64,000 nt of DNA from Cordylochernes scorpioides (lineage: Eukaryota; Arthropoda; Arachnida; Pseudoscorpiones; Chernetidae): NCBI GenBank assembly GCA_030710605.1, contig CP092869.1, positions 15,364,093 to 15,428,092 on the forward strand, in the 5' to 3' direction. Position numbers and translations under genes: made by a program. Below, one piece after another: positions 3,010-61,052 of the stretch (within the stretch, counting starts at the first letter, position 1; every line of letters starts with the position of its first letter). A model generated the notes under the pieces. That model saw only the letters and a list, made by a program, of their open reading frames with translations, was not told where the DNA came from and did not search any database.

Positions 3010-3114
3010 CTAGCCGAATGACCCGGGCAACGCCCGGGGTTTACCCGATTAAATGCTTTTATTCAAATACTATTCGTTACAATTATAAATTGGCGCCGTG
3101 GATGTCATTCTTGT
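3010..3114 (-). mobile_element. Helitron 3' end fragment
   Basis: On the minus strand it ends in a CCCGGG-type hairpin (CCCGGGCGTTGCCCGGGT) and CTAG at 3013-3010, followed by T. The terminal ~100 bp match the Helitron at 42345-42845, including 'ggcgccaatttataattg'. It is cut off upstream by the tRNA-Gly-containing block. Confidence 0.75.
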
Positions 3115-3190
3115 ATAATATATAAATGAGTTTTAAAAATTGTAAAAAAAAAATGCATCGGCCGGGAATCGAACCCGGGGCGCCCGCCAC
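3115..3190 (-). repeat. First unit of 76-bp duplication with partial tRNA-Gly
   Basis: Begins 'tataatatataaatgag' and includes the 3' half of a tRNA-Gly (3154-3190: acceptor 3' strand, T arm, part of the anticodon arm). It is cut at GCCAC and followed at 3191 by a second copy of the same segment. The duplication therefore copied flanking AT-rich DNA together with half of the tRNA. Confidence 0.75.
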
Positions 3191-3233
3191 TATAATATAT
3201 AAATGAGTTTTAAAAATTGTAAAAAAAAAAAAA

Positions 3234-3304
3234 TGCATCGGCCGGGAATCGAACCCGGGGCGCCCGCGTGGCAGGCGAGCATTCTACCACTGAACCAAAA
3301 GCAA
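3234..3304 (-). pseudogene. tRNA-Gly(GCC) pseudogene
   Basis: Minus-strand D arm, anticodon arm, variable loop, T arm and acceptor 3' strand match animal tRNA-Gly. Anticodon GCC is at 3272-3270, B box GGTTCGATTCC is intact, and the A-box region reads GGTTCAGTGGTAGA. The seven bases that should form the acceptor 5' strand (3298-3304) do not pair with the 3' strand. Internal promoter elements look complete, but RNase P maturation and charging should fail. Confidence 0.75.
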
Positions 3305-3598: not shown

Positions 3599-3965
3599 TG
3601 TCTTCATTCATTATATAAAGATGGCGTGCTATATCTTTGTATTAATTTATGCCTAACTTGTTCTTATTGTTTGCGGAAAGGCATTGCTCGATGCAAATAT
3701 TTGAATGTAATTCTACTGTCCTAAAAGCTTATGTCCATAGTTTACTTAAATCCTATTTCTAAGATTCTACCTTTCAGTGTAGCATATATAAGCAGAATGA
3801 TCCAATATAGTATTAGAGCTCTAAAAAAGCGGTCTGTTAGATTAAATTGGCGAAATCACTGGGAGGGTTCACCACTGATGAGCCAAGTCCTCCCAAAATG
3901 TTTTTCCATCGAAGAAAGGACAGTAGAAGTTTGATTCATTTATTAAAAGAAAGTGGTGCCATTGC
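3599..3965 (+). mobile_element. Family F retroposon
   Basis: Nearly collinear with 47640-48005, sharing 'agcttatgtccatagttta' and 'agcagaatgatccaata'. The terminal module reads GGCGAAA, then TGGGAGGG, CACTGATGAGCC, a C-rich arm complementary to GGGAGGG, and 'aggacagtagaag'. The hairpin is slightly decayed here (TCCTCCCA). No coding capacity is seen. Confidence 0.65.
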
Positions 3966-14340: not shown

Positions 14341-14597
14341 AAACACAAGGTAATAAGACCAAATCCAAATAAATAAATAGTGTGAGACGTTTCGGTAACA
14401 GCATTGTTACCATCTTCAGACAAAAGTACTATAATCCAAAACAAGGTAATAAGACCAAATCCAAATAAATAAATAGTGCGAGACGTTTCGGTAACAGCGT
14501 TGTTACCATCTTCAGACAAAAGTACTGAATGAATTATTTATTTGGATTTGGTCTTATTACCTTGTTTTATAATCTATAATCCAAATTGTGCCTTATC
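14341..14597 (+). mobile_element. Family C element with 13-bp TSD
   Basis: TATCCAAGATGAT at 14328-14340 and 14598-14610. 5' end AAACACAAGG, 3' end CCAAATTGTGCCTTATC. Two tandem minus-strand cores, GTTTCGGTAACA...TGTTACCATCTTCAG, are spaced 96 bp apart like the array at 51474-51775. Confidence 0.82.
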
Positions 14598-26462: not shown

Positions 26463-27262
26463 GGTACTTCCTCGGTGTGGAACTGAGGAGTGAAGACCTT
26501 GTCTGGAGGAGAACTCTCTCAAGTTGGGGAAACCTTCCTTGCTGAAGACATTTGTACACAACTATATATATATTCCCCTACATTATATCTACCCTTTATG
26601 GGGCTATGTGGAACTGAGGAGTGAAGACCTTGTCTGGAGGAGAACTCTCTCAAGTTGGGGAAGTCTCCCTTGCTGAAGACATTTGTACACAACTATATAA
26701 TATTCCCCTACATTATATCTACCCTTTATGGGGCTATGTGGAACTGAGGAGTGAAGACCTTGTTTGGAGGAGAACTCTCTCAAGTTGGGGAAACCTTCCT
26801 TGCTGAAGACATTTGTACACAACTATATAATATTCCCCTACATTTTATCTACCCTTTATGGGGCTATGTGGAACTGAGGAGTGAAGACCTTGTCTGGAGG
26901 AGAACTCTCTCAAGTTGGGGAAACCTTCCTTGCTGAAGACATTTGTACACAACTATATAATATTCCCCTACATTATATCTACCCTTTATGGGGCTATGTG
27001 GAACTGAGGAGTGTACAAGAAGACCTTGTCTGGATTCTCTCAAGGTGGGGAAGCCTTCCTTGCTGAAGACATTTGTACACAACTATATATATATTCCCCT
27101 ACATTATATCTACCCTTTATGGGACTATGTGGAACTGAGGAGTGTTCAAGAAGACCTTGTCTGGAGGATAACTCTCTCAAGTTGGGGAAGCCTTCCTTGC
27201 TGAAGACATTTGTACATATACAACTATATATATTCCCCTACATTTTATCTACCCTTTATTTA
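26463..27262 (+). repeat. Minisatellite M, about 130-bp unit, six copies
   Basis: GGAACTGAGGAGTGAAGACC, TGTCTGGAGGAGAACTCTC, 'cttgctgaagacatttgtac' and 'tccctacattatatctaccc' repeat at 130-bp steps (26621, 26751, 26881). Later units vary by small indels. Frames that look conserved on both strands are repeats of this unit. Confidence 0.92.
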
Positions 27263-31734: not shown

Positions 31735-32115
31735 GGTGCTGTCTGCTGCTCCTTGGACACGTGTCTAGTGCTTTGTCTGCTCCTTGGGCACGTGTCTAGT
31801 GCTTTGTCTGATCCTTGGACACGTGTCTAGGGCTTTGTCTGTTCCTTGGACACGTGTCTAGTGCTTTGTCTGTTCCTTGGACACGTGTCTAGTGCTTTGT
31901 CTGCTCCTTGGACACGTGTCTAGTGCTTTGTCTGCTCCTTGGACACGTGTCTAGTGCTTTGTCTGCTCCTTGGACACGTGTCTAGTGCTTTGTCTGCTCC
32001 TTGGGCACGTGTCTAGTGCTTTGTCTGATCCTTGGACACGTGTCTAGTGCTTTGTCTGCTCCTTGGACACGTGTCTAGTGTTTTGTCTGATACTTTAACA
32101 CGTGCCTACTGTTTG
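31735..32115 (+). repeat. 31-bp tandem array with CACGTG in each unit
   Basis: Unit GGACACGTGTCTAGTGCTTT plus GTCTGCTCCTT repeats about 12 times at 31-bp spacing (for example 31751, 31782). Each unit has the 8-bp palindrome ACACGTGT containing a CACGTG E-box; a few units read GGGCACGTGT. Highly homogeneous. Confidence 0.93.
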
Positions 32116-32489
32116 TCTGTTCTTCCCTTCTTGGCTTGTTGACTTCGTGGCACTGAACGGTCTGATTCCTAACTTACTAGTTTCAGTAGTGAAGAATACT
32201 GTGGAGAGAGGATTATCCTCCGATTGATCTAGTTCCTTTTTCCCTCCTCGATATCCATTCTACGAAACATTTCTATCTTGATGGAAGATATGCTGGTTTA
32301 TGTCTCCTGCACATATATAATGGCTCAGTACCGTAAACAACGAGCATCTCCTAATCATGCAACGTTTAGCATCAACGCTTAGTTATTACGTGATCAGCAA
32401 AGGCTTCTTTTTCTTCACTTGACCACACTGATCTTCCTCATACCATTTCCCAGAATCAAAAATATGGAGAATTGTCACCTTTGGTGGGT
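32116..32489. other. Unassigned
   Basis: No repeat family assigned. Confidence 0.35.
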
Positions 32490-33493: not shown

Positions 33494-33621
33494 GGGTGCC
33501 TATCCCGTCAAAATAAACGACAAAACTAGACGCTGTCTATTGACCGTCGCTGCAAACTAGCAGCCTCAGGTCGGTGACAAAGCCACACCACCAGCTCTTC
33601 CAAACTGACAAGTGTCCACCT
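33494..33621 (-). mobile_element. Family B fragment starting at the predicted cleavage site
   Basis: On the minus strand it starts TCTAGGTGGACACTTGTCAG, collinear with 49479 onward, and runs through GGCTTTGTCACCGACCTGAG and GTTTATTTTGACGGGATAGG. The first bases coincide with the nucleotide just after GTC, the cleavage triplet of the hammerhead at 49435-49489. It adjoins GCGCCCTATGCTTTTA in the opposite orientation. Confidence 0.7.
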
Positions 33622-33657
33622 AGAGCGCCCTATGCTTTTATAGATTTATACGTGTAT

Positions 33658-34181
33658 GAAAAAATAGTACAAATGTGATATTGTACTGGGATAAGGTGCA
33701 TACTTATGAAAAAAGGCATCTCCTTATCGTACAACTGAAAGTTGCTGATGGCTTGCGCCATCTATCGGAATAAATATCAACTATTCTCGTTGATTTTTAA
33801 TTATTCCAGAATTGGCCAGCCATAAGGAGATGCCTTTTTTCATAATTATGCACCTTATCCCAGTACAATATCACATTTGTACTATTTTTTCACATTGTGT
33901 CGCGGTCTCACGCAATTCTGGCCTTAACTACCCGTTTCATGATTTTTCAGGATGCCTAGAATGACCAGTTTTTTGGTCGTTGAGGTACAGCTTGCACCAC
34001 GCTGATGAGGGCCAACAACCCGAAACGCGTCCGTGGTTAGCTTTTCTTGATTAATCAAGAATGGGTATTTGGCCAATTCTGGAATAATTAAAAATCAACG
34101 AGAATAGTTGATATTTATTCCGATAGATGGCGCAAGCCATCAACAACTTTCAGTTGCACGATAAGGAGATGCCTTTTTTCA
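33658..34181 (+). mobile_element. Family A element carrying a consensus hammerhead
   Basis: TATACGTGTAT at 33647-33657 and 34182-34192 is an 11-bp TSD. It holds a palindromic A unit (33658-33895: 'tagtacaaatgtgatattgt' and its complement), a unique 100-bp linker (33900-33990), the ribozyme (33989-34042) and the A right arm ('gatggcgcaagccatca', 'gcacgataaggagatgcc'). No protein is encoded, so movement would require enzymes in trans. Confidence 0.82.
33989..34042 (+). ncRNA. Type I hammerhead ribozyme candidate (family A)
   Basis: Stem I: ACCACG (33996-34001) pairs with CGTGGT (34032-34037), extended by AGC/GCT (33989-33991, 34040-34042) across an internal loop. Core CTGATGA 34002-34008. Stem II GGG/CCC (34009-34011, 34019-34021) with loop CCAACAA. 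GAAA 34022-34025. Short stem III A-C/G-T with a 2-base loop. Cleavage triplet GTC, cut predicted after 34031. All invariant bases are present. The very short stem III is typical of hammerheads in retrozymes and Penelope-like elements. Activity is inferred. Confidence 0.85.
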
Positions 34182-34192
34182 TATACGTGTAT

Positions 34193-38635: not shown

Positions 38636-39597
38636 GTTGAATCCCAGAAGAAGAAGGGCGAGCAGCCCTCGTCTCGAATCCCAGAAGAAGAAAGGCGAAC
38701 AGCCCTCATCTCGAATCCCAGAAGAAGGGCGAACAGCCCTCATCTCGAATCCCAGAAGAAGGGCGAACAGATCTCGTCTCGAATCCCCGAAGAAGAAGGG
38801 CGAACAGCCTTCGTCTCGAATCCCAGAAGAAGAAGGGCAAACAGCTCTCATCTCGAATCCCAGAAGAAGAAGGGCGAACAGCCCTCATCTCGAATCCCAG
38901 AAGAAGAAGGGCGAACAGCCCTCGTCTCGAATCCCAGAAGAAGAAGGGCGAACAGCCCTCGTCTCGAATCCCAGAAGTAGAAGGGCGAACAGCCCTCGTC
39001 TCGAATCCCAGAAGTAGAAGGGCGAACAGCCCTCGTCTCGAATCCCAGAAGAAGAAGGGCGAACAGCCCTCATCTCGAATCCCAGAAGAAGGGCGAACAG
39101 CCCTCGTCTCGAATCCCAGAAGAAGAAGAGCGAACAGCCCTCGTCTCGAATCCCAGAAGAAGAAGGGTGAACAGCCCTCGTCTCGAATCCCAGAAGAAGA
39201 AGGGCGAACAGCCCTCGTCTCGAATCCCAGAAGAAGAAGGGCGAACAGCCCTCGTCTCGAATCCCAGAAGTAGAAGGGCGAACAGCCCTCGTCTCGAATC
39301 CCAGAAGAAGAAGGGCGAACAGCCCTCATCTCGAATCCCAGAAGAAGAAGAAGGGCGAACAGCCCTCGTCTCGAATCCCAGAAGAAGGGCGAACAGCCCT
39401 CGTCTCGAATCCCAGAAGAAGAAGGGCGAACAGCCCTCGTCTCGAATCCCAGAAGAAGAAGGGCGAACAGCCCTCGTCTCGAATCCCAGAAGTAGAAGGG
39501 CAAACAGCTCTTGTCTCGAATCCCAGAAGAAGAAGGGCAAACAGCTTTTGTCTCGAATCCCAGAAGAAGAAGGGCGAACAGCCCTCGTCTCAAAATA
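38636..39597 (+). repeat. 37-bp minisatellite, about 26 units
   Basis: Unit GAATCCCAGAAGAAGAAGGG plus CGAACAGCCCTCGTCTC, period 37 with 34- and 40-bp variants that lose or gain one GAA. GGGCGAACAGCCC can form a hairpin. No frame of the unit on the minus strand contains a stop, so a 295-codon open frame results. Its repeating LLLGFETRAVRPSSSGIRDE is translation of satellite DNA. Confidence 0.95.
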
Positions 39598-42845: not shown

Positions 42846-43404
42846 TATATATATAAATATATACAAGGTCTTCATTGGTGACGCCCACCGCGGGAAAGAC
42901 TCCGCCACCGATGGACTGCGAGAGTTCTTTCCCAAAGAGTGGGAGAGATTTGAGATTTAAAAAATATTTTATTTACACCATACACAAGTCAATGGTTGCA
43001 TAGATATAGAAAAAGAGTAAACTATATACAATTATGTAAAGTCCAGGAGATCCCCCAACGACAAAGAGTCCTCCTCCAGACAGTAAGTCACGTTCTCATC
43101 TCAAGTCTCAGAAAGAACCTGTGTATGGATGACTTGGGGGGAAGAGAAATGTGAAGATGTGTTTGTTAGAGGAATCCACAATACTTTGATCTATCTGGAG
43201 AGCTAGGTTATAAAGTGTTTGGAATACATTATCCTAACTAACTTCGAGCCCAGAATAGAGAAATTTTACAATTCAACAGATTGAACGATTCTTAAAAATC
43301 AATTTGATATACCGAGATTTGAAAAATAATAAAAAAAAAAAAAAAAAAAAACGCATTAAATAAGAGAAATTATTACCATTGTTGAAGTTAATTTTAAGGC
43401 GATT
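42846..43404. other. Unassigned, with an M fragment
   Basis: 43030-43090 contains AAAGAGTCCTCCTCCAGACA, a piece of the reverse M unit. 43331-43350 is a run of A. Otherwise unassigned. Confidence 0.35.
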
Positions 43405-44160
43405 GTTGTTGTCATGTCCAATGAAGAGCCTAAGATGTCTACATACATCTCTATCACAGCAATGTTCTCTATCTTGGGTGTGTAAAGCTGCTGTTCTGGG
43501 TCCATGTCAATTTTCTGTTGTTGTCGTGTCCAATGAAGAGCCTCAGATGTCTACATACATCTCTATCACAGCAATGTTCTCTATCTTGGGTGTGTAAAGC
43601 TGCTGTTCTGGGTCCATGTCAATTTTCTGTTGTTGTCGTGTCCAATGAAGAGGCTCGGATGTCTACATACATCTCTATCACAGCAATGTTCTCTATCTTG
43701 GGTGTGTAAAGCTGCTGTTCTGGGTCCATGTTAATTTTCTGTTGTTGTCGTGTCCAATGAAGAGCCTCAGATGTCTCCATACATCTCTATCACAGCAATG
43801 TTCTCTATCTTGGGTGTGTAAAGCTGCTGTTCTGGGTCCATGTCAATTTTATGTTGTTGTTGTTGTGTCCAATGAAGAGGCTCAGATGTCTACATACATC
43901 TCTATCACAGCAATGTATCTATATCTTGGGTGTGTAAAGCTGCTGTTCTGGGTCCATGTTAATTTTCTGTTGTTGTCGTGTCCAATGAAGAGCCTCAGAT
44001 GTCTACATACATCTCTATCACAGCAATGTTCTCTATCTTGGATGTGTAAAGCTGCTGTTCTGGGTCCATGCCAATTTTCTGTTGTTGTTGTGTCCAATGA
44101 AGAGCCTCAGATGTCTCCATACATCTCTATCACAGCAGTCGCAATGTTCTCTATCAGGCG
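43405..44160 (+). repeat. Minisatellite K, 112-bp form, about seven units
   Basis: GTGTCCAATGAAGAGCCTCA, GATGTCTACATACATCTCTA, TCACAGCAATGTTCTCTATC, TTGGGTGTGTAAAGCTGCTG and TCTGGGTCCATGTCAATTTT repeat in order, two units spanning 224 bp between 43518 and 43742. Frames such as LSCPMKSLRCLHTSLSQQ are products of the repeat. Confidence 0.94.
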
Positions 44161-44384: not shown

Positions 44385-45085
44385 ATGTTTCTTGTAATCA
44401 TAGGACAAACTTCTACTGTCCTTACTGTGATGGAAAATATATTATCGTAAAGATAGAGGTTGTCTGGCTGGGGGGGGGGGGGGGGGGGGGGGCATTCATA
44501 TTTCTATGAAAAATAGACACTTCGGCCAGTTAGAGTTTTTTATTTTCTCAACGTTTTTTTTTTCTAACGCCATGCCAAATTCTTTATTTTTATTTACTTC
44601 TTCTTAAGAAGACAAAATTTTTTTGTCGAAACGTTGAGAAAAAAAAAAAAAACTCTAACTGGCCGAAGTGTCTATTTTTCATAGAAAAATATCTTGTTGA
44701 GGTTATGAAGTTTCATTGTTGTTCTGGTTTTTTTGAGGTTGTTCGCGAACATTCTAATTAAGCCTCTCTGTCCTCTGGGACGAATTAAACCCCGAATGTT
44801 TCTTGTAAACATAGAACAAACTTCTCTACTATCCTTACTGCAATGGAAATGATTGTTGGGGTTTTATTGATGTTCTGGTTTTGTTGAGGCTGTTCGCGAA
44901 CATTCTAATTAAGCCTCTCTGTCCTCTGGGACGAATTAAAGCACGAATGTTTCTTGTAAACATAGAACAGACTTCTACTATCCTTACTGTGATGGAAATG
45001 ATTGTTGGGGTTTCATTGTTGTTCTGGTTTTGTTGAGGCTGTTCGCGAACATTCTAATTAAGCCTCTCTGTCCTCTGGGACGACG
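44385..45085 (-). repeat. F-derived units in tandem, about 150 bp, with E inserted
   Basis: GTTCGCGAACATTCTAATTA plus AGCCTCTCTGTCCTCTGGGA occurs at 44741, 44892 and 45041. CGAATGTTTCTTGTAA with 'ttctactatccttactg' alternates with it. The CGAATGTTTCTT and CTACTGTCCTTACTG parts belong to F. The first unit is split by the E element at 44443-44700. Confidence 0.72.
44443..44700. mobile_element. Family E palindrome with G23 run
   Basis: Inverted arms 'gacacttcggccagttagag' and complement. Inner ATTTTTTTGTCGAAACGTTG. 44470-44492 is an unbroken run of 23 G. The CTGACGA box has decayed to CTTAAGA. Confidence 0.7.
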
Positions 45086-47110: not shown

Positions 47111-47169
47111 ACAATAACGATTTGGTTCGAGATTTCATCAAACCCTATGGTGGGAATAGGTAACAACAA

Positions 47170-47412
47170 CAACATATCGTAAAGATAGAGGCTGCCTGGC
47201 CGGTATTCATATTTCTTAAAATAAAAGACACTTCGGCCAGTAAATCTTTTTATTGTTTCGACAAAAATCTTTATAGATTACCTTCTATATAGAATAATTT
47301 CTAACACTTTGCCAAATGTTTTAATTTTTGTTTGCTCCTGACGAGGACAAAAGATTTTTGTCGAAACGTCGAGATAATAAAAAGATTTACTGACCGAAGT
47401 GTCGTTTATTTT
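47170..47412. mobile_element. Family E palindrome with best E core
   Basis: Arms 'gacacttcggccagtaaatc' and complement. Plus-strand core CTGACGAGGACAAAAGATTT, TTGTCGAAACGTCGAG has all invariant hammerhead bases and a 3-bp CTC/GAG stem I. Stem II GACAAA/TTTGTC leaves one unpaired G after CTGACGA, so it departs from a strict hammerhead. The left partner lacks its box. Confidence 0.68.
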
Positions 47413-47454
47413 AAGAGCAACAACATAGTTCTGTGGAATAAATTAACACAAAGC

Positions 47455-48005
47455 AATAACGCGCCATCTATACATATAAAATAAAAGGATTTAAAAGCGC
47501 GAATGTTTCTTTTATACATAAAACGAACTTCTACTGTCCTTACTGCGATGAAAAATATATTGGGAGGGCTTGGCTCATCAGTGGTGAACCCTCCCAGCGG
47601 TTTCGCCAATATAAAAGAAACATTCGCGCTTTTAAATCCTTTTATTTTATATGTATAGATGGCGCGTTATTGCTTTGTGTTAATTTATTCCTAATGACCT
47701 TGTCTTTATTGCTCGAAGCAAATATTTGAATATAATTCTACTGTCCTATAAGCTTATGTCCATAGTTTACTTGAAAACCATTTCTAAGATTCCATCCTTC
47801 AGTGTAGCATATAAAAGCAGAATGATCCAATACAATATTAGAGCTCTGAGAAGCGGTCTGGTGGATTAAATTGGCGAAACCGCTGGGAGGGTTCACCACT
47901 GATGAGCCAAGCCCTCCCAATATATTTTTCATCGCAGTAAGGACAGTAGAAGTTCGTTTTATGTATAAAAGAAACATTCGCGCTTTTAAATCCTTTTATT
48001 TTATA
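47455..48005. mobile_element. Family F pair, head-to-head
   Basis: A minus-strand F 3' part (47455-47605) faces a plus-strand F (47640-48005). Each has CGCTGGGAGGGTTCACCACT, GATGAGCCAAGCCCTCCCAA and AAGCGCGAATGTTTCTTTTA. The plus copy is the best preserved in the window, with perfect 7-bp hairpin stem. Confidence 0.75.
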
Positions 48006-48763: not shown

Positions 48764-48958
48764 AGGTTGTCCCAAAAGTTCGTGTTTTCTTAAAACGTTT
48801 TGTTTTCCTTATTGACGAATATATTTATTATGGTGAATACACATAACAATACATATTACAATTACTTTATACATTATACAAAGATATTATACATAACGGC
48901 GAATAATATTGGTATTTAATTTTTTTTTGCAAGTGTTTAAGAACTTTTAGGACAACCT
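48764..48958 (+). mobile_element. MITE, mariner-type TIRs
   Basis: AGGTTGTCCCAAAAGTTCG at the left and GAACTTTTAGGACAACCT at the right, TA on both sides. GGTTGTCCCAAAAGTT-like TIRs are characteristic of mariner. 195 bp, no coding. The mariner remnant at 36824 need not be its source. Confidence 0.85.
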
Positions 48959-48960
48959 TA

Positions 48961-49244
48961 TAACGCATGGAATTTAATTTAGAATTTTCAGTTTTGTCTT
49001 TTAATCACTTTTGTGCATGAAAATATTATGTTCTTTGTTAAAAATCAATTCCGTTCGTTATTGCACGATATTATCAATTCAACCCGTGTTCATCTTGAAA
49101 CATTTTTTTTTTTCCTTTTTGCCAGGGCGTCTCATATGTTTAACTAGACATTCAAAGAATGAGACAACGTCTCAATTTGGCCCCTACGTTCAAATCTAGA
49201 GATTACCTGCAACATGATTTGTATTTATTTATTTATTTATTTAT
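48961..49244. other. Unassigned; (ATTT)n at end
   Basis: Ends in an ATTT microsatellite (49220-49243), apparently the target of the B insertion. Confidence 0.5.
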
Positions 49245-49652
49245 AGAAGCATAGGGCGCCTCTCCCGTCAAAATAAACGTCAAGGGCCCTATGCTTCTAT
49301 GGATCAATATCCTCCCGGCAAAATTTCCATCTATATTTTAGCCATAGATTTGGTCCAGCCATCTTGCCAGTAAAACACCTCTTTGGTAGATTGTGAAGAT
49401 TCCGTTAGATCCCGTGTGGATCTCATGGAATAAAGTCCGCCCTAGACTGACGAGGGCCATTAGCCCGAAACCATGGTCTCTAGGTGGACGCTTCTCAGTT
49501 TGCCAAAGCTGGTGTTGTGGCTTTGTCACCGACCTGAGGCCGCTAGTTGCGGCGACGGTCAATAGATGGCGTCAGGTTTTTGACGTTTATTTTGACGGGA
49601 GAGGCGCCCTATGCTTCTATGGATCAATTTCCTCCCGGCAATTTTTCCATCT
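49245..49652 (+). mobile_element. Family B retrozyme-like element
   Basis: Direct repeats CCCTATGCTTCTATGGATCA... at 49286-49332 and 49606-49652 are offset by 320 bp and enclose the ribozyme. The left edge (49245-49282) is an inverted copy of 49579-49617 (GACGGGAGAGGCGCCCTATG). Flanks are ATTT repeats, so a TSD cannot be judged. Direct repeats around one hammerhead suit insertion of a slightly more-than-unit-length copy of a circular RNA. No ORF. Confidence 0.8.
49435..49489 (+). ncRNA. Type I hammerhead ribozyme candidate (family B)
   Basis: Stem I: CCTAGA (49441-49446) pairs perfectly with TCTAGG (49479-49484), then internal loop GC/T, then GTCC (49435-49438) with GGAC (49486-49489). Core CTGACGA 49447-49453. 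Stem II GGGC/GCCC (49454-49457, 49463-49466) with loop CATTA. GAAA 49467-49470. Stem III ACC/GGT (49470-49472, 49475-49477) with loop AT. Cleavage predicted after C49478 (GTC). C at the variable position 7 is allowed. Every pairing and invariant base fits, so this is the stronger of the two ribozymes. Activity is inferred. Confidence 0.9.
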
Positions 49653-49907
49653 TATTTATTTATGTAAAATATTTAAATATTCTTTGATTTTTCATCATAT
49701 AGTTTAAGCAGTCGGCAAGACTTTCTTTCTTCCTCTAATTTTACATAAGTTTTGTTAATATATTACGGTTAACCTTGTTGTAATGTAATTAAATATTAAA
49801 ACACAAAGTATTGTGGCTATCCTTTATTTATAAATAAGGAAACGTTACTGTTTTGTATTATTTATCATTGATTTTCTATATTCTCTTTTTATCAACATCA
49901 TCATTCA
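49653..49907. other. Unassigned AT-rich spacer
   Basis: Nothing recognised. Confidence 0.35.
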
Positions 49908-50030
49908 TATTGTCAAGAAGCTCCATGGGACACCTGTCAATCATCCCTGGACCCCGGGGGGGACCACAGATGTGAGGGATTCTCGGAATGATTGACAGGT
50001 GTCCCATCTGGATGTAGTTTCTTGACAATA
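49908..50030. repeat. Hairpin repeat, about 45-bp arms
   Basis: ATTGTCAAGAAGCTCCATGG, GACACCTGTCAATCAT on the left and ATGATTGACAGGTGTCCCAT, 'gtttcttgacaat' on the right. The loop includes a CCCCGGGGGGG stretch. Confidence 0.75.
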
Positions 50031-50094
50031 TTGTAATCAAAAGATGTTTCGAGAATAAAATTGTTTTTGTTATTGTGTGTAAACAAATGTCATT

Positions 50095-50215
50095 AATTTA
50101 AATATAATATATTAAATATTTTATTTACTTCTCCTGACGAAGACAAAAGATTTTTGTCGAAACGTTGAGAAAATAAAAAGCTCCAACTGGCCGAAGTGTC
50201 TATTTTTTATATAAA
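50095..50215 (+). mobile_element. Family E copy, one arm
   Basis: CTCCTGACGAAGACAAAAGA, TTTTTGTCGAAACGTTGAG, 'aactggccgaagtgtctatt'. The triplet after GAAAC reads GTT instead of GTC. Same one-base bulge as 47338. Confidence 0.68.
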
Positions 50216-50699
50216 TATAAAAAGACATTACAGTTACATTATCCAGATGTTGAATTCTGTATAATATTTCTGAGAAATTGATTGGATTTTCTCTTCTGGA
50301 TGGTTGTTGAGGGTTTTGGAAATTTTATCCAGAAGATAACTGCTCCAGACGGCCAACTAGCCGCTACACAGAGCCCTCGGGTAGTGACCGCTTCTAATGG
50401 CAGGCTGAAGATGGTATCTATTCTTTTTCAATGATGTTCAGACGACACTTTGCACCATGTACAGATGGGCCCTTTGTTGGAAACTATCTCGTCTTTTTTT
50501 GTTCTTGTTTTACTCAGCATACCTTCATGTTGGAACATCGTTTCTTAAGCTGCCCAACAAACGGTGATTTAGATGGCGTTTTCTGATATCCCCCAGCTCT
50601 CTCTGGTCGTGAACTAAGATCTTCACGATATTCTCTAAGCTTAGTGTCGTTACTCTTGTTTCGAAGATGTTTTAATGATTTCTGGAACATCTTTCTTTC

Positions 50700-50945
50700 T
50701 TCTTTGATTTAAGAGACACTTCGACCAGTAAATGTGTTTTTTTTTTTAATTTACTCGATGTTTCGACAAAAATCTTTTGTCTTCGTTAGGAAAAAAATAA
50801 AATTTGAGGCATTTGGCAAGGTGTTAAAAATTATTCTAAGATGACAAAAGATTTTTGTTGAAATGTCAAGAGAATAAAAAAACATTACTGACCAAAGTAT
50901 CTTCAATTCTAAGAACTATGAATGCCGGCCAGGCAGCCTCTATCT
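50700..50945. mobile_element. Family E palindrome
   Basis: 'gagacacttcgaccagtaaa' on the left with minus-strand core GTTTCGACAAAAATCTTTTG, TCTTCGTTAG. Right arm 'attactgaccaaagtatc' followed by GAATGCCGGCCAGGCAGCCT. Cores are decayed (CTAACGA; GAAATGTC). Confidence 0.68.
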
Positions 50946-51129
50946 TCATGATTTTCTTTCTTCGATTCGATCCTGTTTTAAATTCGATTATGGCTTCTTT
51001 AAACCTTCTCTAGAACATCCAACATGGAATTCCTTCTCCCTCTTTTTTTTTGGCAGTCAAAATAGGTTCAAAAAATGACATCTGACAATCTTGATTTAAA
51101 ATAAGTTTCTTTCTTTTTCTTCTTCTGTA

Positions 51130-51231: not shown

Positions 51232-51473
51232 ATTTAAAATAAGTTTCTGGTAAATGGCAATGCGTCAATGGGTTGGATGACATGTGGTTTTTCAATCAAA
51301 AAGAACTTCTCCTATCAAGTATGTGATGTAATCTGTAAATAATTCATAGAATGTACAAAAGAAAGGTTATCATCATTATTGTGTATGTTCTGTATAGAGA
51401 CAGGTCGAGTTATGCCATATATATATAGTTGATAGAAAGGCCATATAAGTTAGTAAGTTCCCTCTCTTGCTGT

Positions 51474-51775
51474 GGTAAAATTTCTCATTCAGTACTTTTG
51501 TCTGAAGATGGTAACAACGCTGTTACCGAAACATCACACACTATTTATTTATTTGGTAAAACATGCTGTGGTAAAATTTCTCATTCAGTACTTTTGTCTG
51601 AAGATGGTAACAACGCTGTTACCAAAGCATCACACACTATTTATTTATTTGGTAAAACATGCTGTGGTAAAATTTCTCATTCAGTACTTTTGTCTGAAGA
51701 TGGTAACAACGCTGTTACCGAAACGTCACACACTATTTATTTATTTGGATTTGGTCTTATTACCTTGTGTTTGTA
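51474..51775 (+). mobile_element. Family C, three tandem hammerhead-like cores
   Basis: CTGAAGATGGTAACAACGCT, GTTACCGAAAC(A/G)TC recurs at 51502, 51598 and 51694, exactly 96 bp apart, within GCTGTGGTAAAATTTCTCAT units. The array ends with the C end TTTGGTCTTATTACCTTGTG. The 32-codon repeating frame results from a 96-bp period. Confidence 0.82.
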
Positions 51776-57310: not shown

Positions 57311-57529
57311 AATTGATGATATATACTATTTTTATGTACAAATTATTATTTACATGTTTTAAATAATAATGATATTGAAAGGGAAGAAAAATATAGATTA
57401 CATTCTTTGTGTGTTATAAACAATTTTTGAAAATATACGTACATGGTAAACAAGATCATATAATAAATATGTAATTCATCTACCGTGGTACTGTATTGCA
57501 TAGCTCTATCTAGAGACTGTAACTATATT

Positions 57530-58455
57530 GTTGTTGTGTCCAATGAAGAGCCTCAGATGTCTCCATACATCTCTATCACAACAGTTGTAATGTCCACTAC
57601 CTTGGGTGTGTAAAGCTGCTGCTCTGGGTCCATGTCAATTTTCTGTTGTTGTCGTGTCCAATGAAGAGCCTCAGATGTCTCCATACATCTCTATCACAAC
57701 AGTCGCAATGTCCACTATCTTGGGTGTGTAAAGCTGCTGCTCTGGGTCCATGTCAATTTTCTGTTGTTGTCGTGTCCAATGAAGAGCCTCAGATGTCTCC
57801 ATACATCTCTATCACAACAGTCGCAATGTCCACTATCTTGGGTGTGTAAAGCTGCTGCTCTGGGTCCATGTCAATTTTCTGTTGTTGTTGTGTCCAATGA
57901 AGAGTCTCAGATGTCTCCATACATCTCTATCACAGCAGCAGCAATGTCCACTACCTTGGGTGTGTAAAGCTGCTGTTCTGGGTCCATGTCAATTTTCTGT
58001 TGTTGTTGTGTCCAATGAAGAGCCTCAGATGTCTCCATACATCTCTATCACAGCAGCAGCAATGTCCACTACCTTGGGTGTGTAAAGCTGCTGCTCTGGG
58101 TCCATGTCAATTTTCTGTTGTTGTCGTGTCCAATGAAGAGCCTCAGATGTCTCCAAACATCTCTATCACAGCAGCAGCAATGTCCACTATCTTGGGTATG
58201 TAAAGCTGCTGCTCTGGGTCCATGTCAATTTTCTGTTGTTGTCGTGTCCAATGAAGAGCCTCAGATGTCCCCATGAATCTCTATCACAGAAGTCACAATG
58301 TCCTCTATCTTGGGTGTGTAAAGCTGCTGTTCTGATTCCACGTCAATTTTCTGTTGTTGTTGTCGTGTCCAATGAAGTGCCTCAGATATCTCCAATGTCC
58401 TATATCAGCAATGTCCTATATCTTGGGTGTGTAAAGCGGCTGCTCTGGGTCTATG
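57530..58455 (+). repeat. Minisatellite K, 118-bp form, about eight units
   Basis: Period 118 bp (57646, 57764, 57882, 58000). Relative to the array at 43405 the units contain TCACAACAGTCGCAATGTCC or TCACAGCAGCAGCAATGTCC, six bases longer, and read CTCCATACATCTC. The last two units are diverged. Confidence 0.94.
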
Positions 58456-58524
58456 TAACTATATTAAATACGATATAGAATATAGAGAGGTTTAAAGATA
58501 AAAACTGTATAAAGATACGACATG

Positions 58525-60815: not shown

Positions 60816-61052
60816 GATAAGGTACAATTTGGATTATAAAACAAGGTAATTAGACCAAATCCAAATAAATAATTAGTGTGTGACGTTTCGGTAACAGCGT
60901 TGTTACCATCTTCAGACAAAAGTACTGAAACTTTAAAAAACTGAAAAATACTGAAACTCATTCAGTACTTTTGTCTGAAGATGGTAACAACGCTGTTACC
61001 GAAACGTCACACACTATTTATTTATTTGGATTTGGTCTTATTACCTTGTTTT
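60816..61052 (-). mobile_element. Family C element with 13-bp TSD
   Basis: ATAAGACTATCTT (60803-60815) and ATAAAACTATCTT (61053-61065), one mismatch. Both opposed cores are intact in sequence: minus-strand GTTTCGGTAACAGCGTTGTT, ACCATCTTCAG and plus-strand CTGAAGATGGTAACAACGCT, GTTACCGAAACGTC. Confidence 0.82.

Follow-up and report, generated by a model that had tools for sequence, protein, structure and literature searches.

Among the described systems, two come closest to the elements treated here. Animal non-LTR retrozymes, as presented in the excerpted text of Cervera and de la Pena (2020; PMC7229834), are circle-making tandem repeats, and the same excerpts leave open which enzyme mobilises them while naming Penelope-like elements as a strong candidate. 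With regard to the latter, a Penelope-like protein has been found to cut AT-rich DNA, to extend both strands and to start at two internal sites that bound a tail, the start sites being alike on both strands (PMC11167929), and head-to-head pLTRs of which one carries a 31-bp tail appear in the excerpts of PMC3846280. In addition, schistosome hammerhead repeats with inverted repeats and possible target duplications are mentioned in part of PMC8490949. A search of the open-licence literature yielded no report of a two-ended anatomy or of Penelope-type integration marks in retrozymes.

The locus studied here lies in a 64,000-nucleotide stretch of Cordylochernes scorpioides DNA (the window), in which a first-pass annotation had placed a type I hammerhead within a 320-bp direct-repeat element, termed family B. 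The direct repeat with its spacing of 320 bp is indeed present, its two 47-nt copies being 94% identical. An inverted repeat of 49 nt (49235-49283 and 49580-49628) and both copies of TTATTTATTTAT had escaped that annotation. The family B element is 49245-49651, larger than first reported, and consists of two head-to-head arms between 12-bp duplications (Table 1). It has a GC content of 49.1%, and the longest stop-free run in the doubled unit amounts to 108 amino acids. Since no reading frame for reverse transcriptase plus GIY-YIG occurs in the 407-bp element, family B is not itself a Penelope-like element, despite its Penelope-like insertion. Comparison with phage records gave no match, and none of ten window ORFs, out of 34 with at least 105 amino acids, contained a Pfam domain above cut-off. 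About 250 bp to the right of the element, nested inverted repeats (23 nt, 96%; 20 nt, 90%) form a foldback-like structure at 49907-50031.

Table 1. Features of the two retrozyme insertions and of a Penelope-like pair in the window (positions of the window; a dot marks features given no strand)
Feature	Positions	Strand	Remarks
Family A insertion (tail on the minus arm, short end on the plus arm)	33658..34181	.	flanked by TATACGTGTAT copies
Family A type I hammerhead	33990..34041	+	palindromic stem III ACGCGT
Head-to-head Penelope-like pLTR pair	47177..47417	.	minus arm with tail, plus arm without; CAACAACATA flanks (by eye)
Family B, left target duplication TTATTTATTTAT	49233..49244	.	register uncertain, inside TTTA repeat
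Family B, minus arm, short end (site 1, ..GCTTCTAT) at 49245	49245..49283	-	inverted repeat and end reading
Family B, plus arm of one 320-nt unit and a further ~46 nt; its tail end (site 2, ..TTTTTCCATCT) falls at ~49651	49284..49651	+	
Family B, 47-nt direct repeat, copy 1	49286..49332	+	
Family B type I hammerhead	49435..49489	+	cut predicted after 49478; stem III is the palindrome ACCATGGT
Family B, 47-nt direct repeat, copy 2	49606..49652	+	holds both start sites
Family B, right target duplication TTATTTATTTAT	49652..49663	.	

A second retrozyme of the window, family A, has a unit of 339 nt, a GC content of 40.7% and the same two-armed plan, and the TATACGTGTAT copies at its flanks occupy 33647-33657 and 34182-34192. 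The only sequence that families A and B have in common is a stretch of 25 nt in the ribozyme core (84%); otherwise they are unrelated. On its left, the family A insertion is adjoined at about 33560-33646 by a family-B-like relic composed of GCCCTATGCTTTTATAG and a partial ribozyme.

The hammerhead of family B is genuine. The core bases CTGACGA and GAAA and the GTC triplet are all in place, as are the stem I of 6+4 bp with an internal loop and the stem II of 4 bp that had been described, while the 3-bp stem III of the first-pass annotation does not hold: ACCATGGT is perfectly palindromic and leaves no room for a loop, and the monomer fold (z = -2.75) has no stem III. The palindrome cannot close a hairpin, and cleavage should therefore need two ribozymes. 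The two-molecule minimum-energy fold is a double hammerhead with a stem III of 8 bp, at a predicted -55.0 kcal/mol vs. -23.9 kcal/mol for the single molecule. The covariance search by which the ribozyme was to be checked came back empty, Rfam hammerhead families remaining unmatched at gathering scores over the whole window and at E<=10 over 48800-50400, likely because stem III is a loopless palindrome. A full type I descriptor (stem I of at least 4 bp, stem II of at least 3 bp, GAAA, stem III as hairpin or palindrome, and UH), run on both strands, found two sites in the window, at 34002 in family A and at 49447 in family B, both on the plus strand and none on the minus strand. The bare core CTGANGA..GAAA occurs 21 times in the window vs. 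5.7 expected, many of these sites being copies of repeats.

That the hammerhead is a chance match, with the repeat representing a foldback DNA element or else an assembly error, is extremely improbable. Foldback elements also show inverted ends and AT-rich duplications, and the missing Rfam match would fit this explanation as well. On the other hand, no site fitting the full descriptor turned up in 2.56 Mb of random sequence (40 first-order Markov sequences, each 64 kb long, with the dinucleotide make-up of the window); the stems of family A covary, there are many copies with different flanks, and unequal ends, one per arm, occur in two unrelated families.

Conservation among genomic copies was followed in both families. 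The hammerhead core is nearly invariant in 73 family-B stretches. When the extraction was widened, 106 copies, some of the loci overlapping, yielded 25 distinct family-B variants, in which only two two-sided stem changes, both isolated, were seen; some variants have broken pairs or an altered core, as expected for decaying copies. The presence of the palindrome in 25/25 of these variants is uninformative, as the extraction pattern nearly demanded it. Family A yielded 29 variants from 58 copies, with two pairs of stem I changed (A-T to T-A in five variants, T-A to C-G in seven) and one pair of stem II (G-C to C-G in five). These covariations largely co-occur in one subfamily and thus represent few events. 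Stem pairs were counted by script; a MAFFT alignment had failed to bring the stem I strands of the two families into register. The absence of covariation among genome-wide copies, named in advance as the observation that would speak against the ribozyme, is thus found in part: within family B there are only isolated two-sided changes, while covariation exists within family A and between A and B. The proposal of a small retrozyme is supported by the conserved core, tandem and dispersed genome copies, target duplications and the family A stem covariation.

Several further repeats of the window were noted. A hammerhead-like core, CTGAAGA..GAAAC(G/A)TC, is found in a 96-bp unit that occurs in tandem or head to head at 51468-51748, 14345-14526, 60840-61050, 8495, 10217, 10876, 16117 and 18391; the copy at 60840-61050 differs from families A and B in that its two sides seem to stop at one and the same site. 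An inverted-repeat element at 47480-47660 and 3875-3917 contains CTGATGAGCC and GGCGAAAC in permuted order, and its relatives adjoin family A and B copies (L044, L019); a hammerhead considered for the repeat at 47480-47660 was dropped, as no stem I could be drawn. A minus-strand tRNA-like match (39.4 bits) at 3114-3302 overlaps an 80-bp tandem duplication. Long tandem arrays occupy 38639-39591, 43404-44137, 57528-58456, 31746-32119 and 26476-27259, the 112-bp unit at 43404 being related to the 118-bp unit at 57528.

To characterize the insertions beyond the window, the genome (2.62 Gb in 24 contigs) was searched with both elements. For family B there were 2279 first-look candidates, and scoring of 40 of them yielded 200 matches; the best other family B matches among these 40 candidates had 95-96% identity. 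Family A gave 2516 first-look candidates. In all, 37 family-B insertions and 40 family-A loci were read, which are the best matches to one query and no random sample. L038, a segmental duplicate of L025, was excluded from family B, and L086 was excluded as a second copy of L052, whereas L081-L085 are counted within the 40 family-A loci; L057 and L058 are possibly duplicates of one insertion. Two arms were detected by BLAST in 23/37 family-B insertions, arm lengths vary, and many copies have different flanks. The longest insertion, L032, has arms of 2148 and 1563 nt with several units each. The seemingly single-armed copies L003, L005 and L010 start at AGAAGC beside the duplication, and they could have a second arm of a few nucleotides, joined via the AGAAGC/GCTTCT inverted repeat of the unit.

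Family B insertions end on their outer sides either after ..GCTTCTAT (short end) or after ..TTTTTCCATCTAT (tail end), two sites 34 nt apart; the corresponding sites of family A are ~48-50 nt apart. One short and one tail end were present in 21 of the 22 family-B insertions with both ends read, a count including L001, the left end of which comes from a separate reading, and in 20 of the 21 such family-A insertions, where the tail ends of L044 and L054, lying 10-18 nt early, were scored as tails. The exceptions are L034 in family B, with the same odd stop (index 38) on both sides, and L047 in family A, with two tails. Two short ends were found in none of the 22 B and 21 A insertions with both ends read. 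A single readable end was available in 14 family-B insertions besides L001, always the tail, and in 19 of family A (16 short, three tail); in L064 neither end was readable. The contrast between A and B in the one-ended copies fits selection by the ends of the queries, and we conclude nothing from it. Selection by query does not easily yield the two-ended result, as the B query favours the tail and the A query the short end, and neither forbids the second end.

The flanks of these insertions, compared over 18 nt of flank plus 8 nt of element per side, have mean shared runs of 13.45 nt in family B and 11.48 nt in family A vs. 9.04 and 5.73 nt after shuffling of partners, with largest shuffled means of 10.32 nt (B) and 7.57 nt (A). 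Shared runs of at least 7 nt were present in 20/22 B and 18/21 A insertions, and all 38 of these have one short and one tail end. Target sites are often (TA)n or other AT-rich DNA, and many B flanks consist of (TA)n, where a shared run has little meaning. Unique shared runs of 11-15 nt occur in L002, L009, L011, L036 and L040, including the unique duplications TCGATATGGAAT in L002, AGTGTTTTCAA in L009 and TTCTTAAAATAA in L011. The two insertions that break the end rule, L034 and L047, share 4 nt each, and L033, L044 and L052, which obey it, have similarly short runs of 3, 5 and 6 nt. The sequences thus show most family-B copies with both ends read to be the product of one insertion flanked by short duplications.

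One short and one tail end per insertion indicate that reverse transcription starts inside the unit, probably from both cut strands. The start of the cDNA is at about u45-47 of the unit, far from the ribozyme cut at u193. The direct repeats arise because reverse transcription begins inside the unit and runs somewhat beyond one unit, and they do not imply copying from circular RNA as the first-pass annotation had assumed. Arms of the same insertion resemble each other as closely as do units inside one arm: in the interval u71-270, the divergence between units is 0.41% for comparisons within an arm (n = 37), 0.40% for those between arms of an insertion (n = 53) and 1.94% for those between insertions (n = 1926). 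Two nucleotides carried by the nine other units of L032 are missing from the unit that was copied first in each arm. This single insertion is most simply explained by one multimeric RNA whose units differed and which served both arms as template; alternatively, gene conversion may have acted between the outermost units. With regard to the other end of the cDNAs, the 5' end made by the ribozyme was rejected as a stopping point, since just one of 54 arm starts lies there. Fifteen of the 54 arm starts fall at u271-279 vs. 1.5 expected, an interval chosen post hoc, and a hairpin just upstream, seen by eye, may stop the enzyme. Folding of the start region revealed no convincing common structure (z of -0.5 to -2.6, with folds differing within one family).

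Unit-length RNA circles made by the ribozyme and copied round and round into tandem cDNA, with the inverted arms as a secondary product, would be another source of these insertions. Northern blots in the excerpts of PMC7229834 show circles of animal retrozymes, several arms exceed one unit, reaching the 2148 nt of L032, and neither L021 nor L022 shows any difference among the units read. We nevertheless consider such a template unlikely: the 2-nt gap of the first-copied units in L032 speaks against it, although arm-to-arm gene conversion could also explain that gap, and insertion of a Penelope-like element in vitro is unaffected by ribozyme mutants (PMC11167929), while the scarcity of arm starts near the ribozyme cut (1/54) is neutral for a circle. 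Self-priming by snap-back on an antisense template, proposed for the palindromic junctions of rotifer Penelope elements in the excerpts of PMC3846280, would make head-to-head arms and is in line with both arms carrying the same sequence. It predicts equal junction coordinates, however, whereas the arm starts are at least 18 nt apart in 22 of the 23 two-armed B insertions, being equal in L022, and it leaves the unequal outer ends unexplained, which makes it a very improbable origin of the arms.

The comparison was extended to head-to-head GIY-YIG/Penelope-like pairs of the same genome. Candidate genes for the inserting enzyme are plentiful there: the PF01541 (GIY-YIG) profile gave 17015 first-look candidates, and 146 of the 150 scored matched, among which 11 pairs of GIY-YIG matches 1.4-4 kb apart were recognized by eye, all of them minus then plus. 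Outer pieces were examined for five of these 11 pairs. In L087/L088 the pieces are identical to their end and no end is readable, while in all four head-to-head pairs with readable ends one arm stops and the other continues with a tail; a duplication is visible by eye in three of these four. A minimal hammerhead CTGACGA..GAAACGT is present in the pieces of three of the four pairs and absent in L093/L094. With the pLTR pair of the window included, a tail on one arm occurs in 5/5 readable insertions of this kind. Pieces of these pLTRs are found in the window, e.g., at 47291-47416 and 50119-50216; Penelope-like pLTR pieces were noted at 2112-2959, 44491-44690, 47133-47416, 50112-50229 and 50693-50953, some in inverted pairs, with minimal hammerheads at 47338 and 50134. 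A hand-written GIY-YIG motif had no match in the window or in the loci collected before these pairs.

Twin priming by a LINE-type enzyme likewise gives inverted arms joined at variable points, and target duplications of about 12 bp are usual for LINEs too. Mobilization by such an enzyme is nonetheless about as improbable as snap-back, as twin priming inverts from inside the element whereas here both arms begin near 3' sites, and as fixed ends ~34 or ~48 nt apart match the Penelope-like tails of the same genome.

Our main reading, to which we assign a probability of roughly 0.78, is that an endonuclease-bearing Penelope-like enzyme inserts family B, a non-coding, non-autonomous hammerhead retrozyme of ~319-320 nt. 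The candidate enzyme would cut both target strands, whose 3' ends would prime on retrozyme RNA, probably on a single molecule, with one end using the short site and the other the tail site. The resulting cDNAs would then be joined at whatever point each had reached. The ribozyme would cut multimeric transcripts into units, working pairwise through the ACCAUGGU stem. More tentatively, and at somewhat below even odds, a single RNA may serve both target ends simultaneously, held by the Penelope-type enzyme, perhaps as a dimer, in such a way that each cut DNA strand primes at its own fixed site and the two cDNAs are linked head to head, with an uncut multimer rather than a unit circle as template. 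If this is true, the rule of one short and one tail end would be the genomic footprint of that geometry, shared by Penelope-like elements and the retrozymes mobilised with their enzyme. The insertion marks are observed in families A and B, and from them we infer a mechanism common with Penelope-like elements.

These results bear on the open question of how hammerhead retrozymes move in animal genomes. Insertions of families A and B are short enough for complete reading and preserve a record of the insertion reaction. They join two published facts about Penelope-like elements, the two start sites and the extension of both strands, and suggest one site per strand per insertion, which the strand result of PMC11167929 neither contradicts nor supports. 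In addition, they call into question the ribozyme-made circle as the integrating template.

In comparison with known systems, the evidence supports family B as a new family of animal non-LTR retrozyme. As far as the excerpts of PMC7229834 describe them, metazoan non-LTR retrozymes likewise have a small unit (150-450 bp in that paper) with a type I hammerhead, tandem and dispersed copies, a GC content below 50% and target duplications of more than 4 bp. The words inverted, head-to-head and tail do not occur in the main text of PMC7229834, whereas families A and B are two-armed with two fixed ends. The stem III of family B is a palindrome usable only between two ribozymes, for which the weak helix III of amphibian retrozymes may be compared. 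Plant LTR retrozymes (PMC4918200, as cited in the excerpts of PMC7229834) are likewise non-autonomous, carry hammerheads and have proposed RNA circles, but their hammerheads are of type III and reside in LTRs and their duplications measure 4 bp, whereas family B has a type I hammerhead and duplications of ~12 bp. Penelope-like elements, according to PMC11167929 and the excerpted text of PMC3846280, resemble family B in the head-to-head arrangement of the arms, in a tail of ~30-40 nt on one of the two ends, in short duplications, in AT-rich targets and in two internal starts of reverse transcription, while family B differs from them in being non-coding, in its 320-nt unit and in a hammerhead that is longer than the minimal one in the pLTRs of the same genome.
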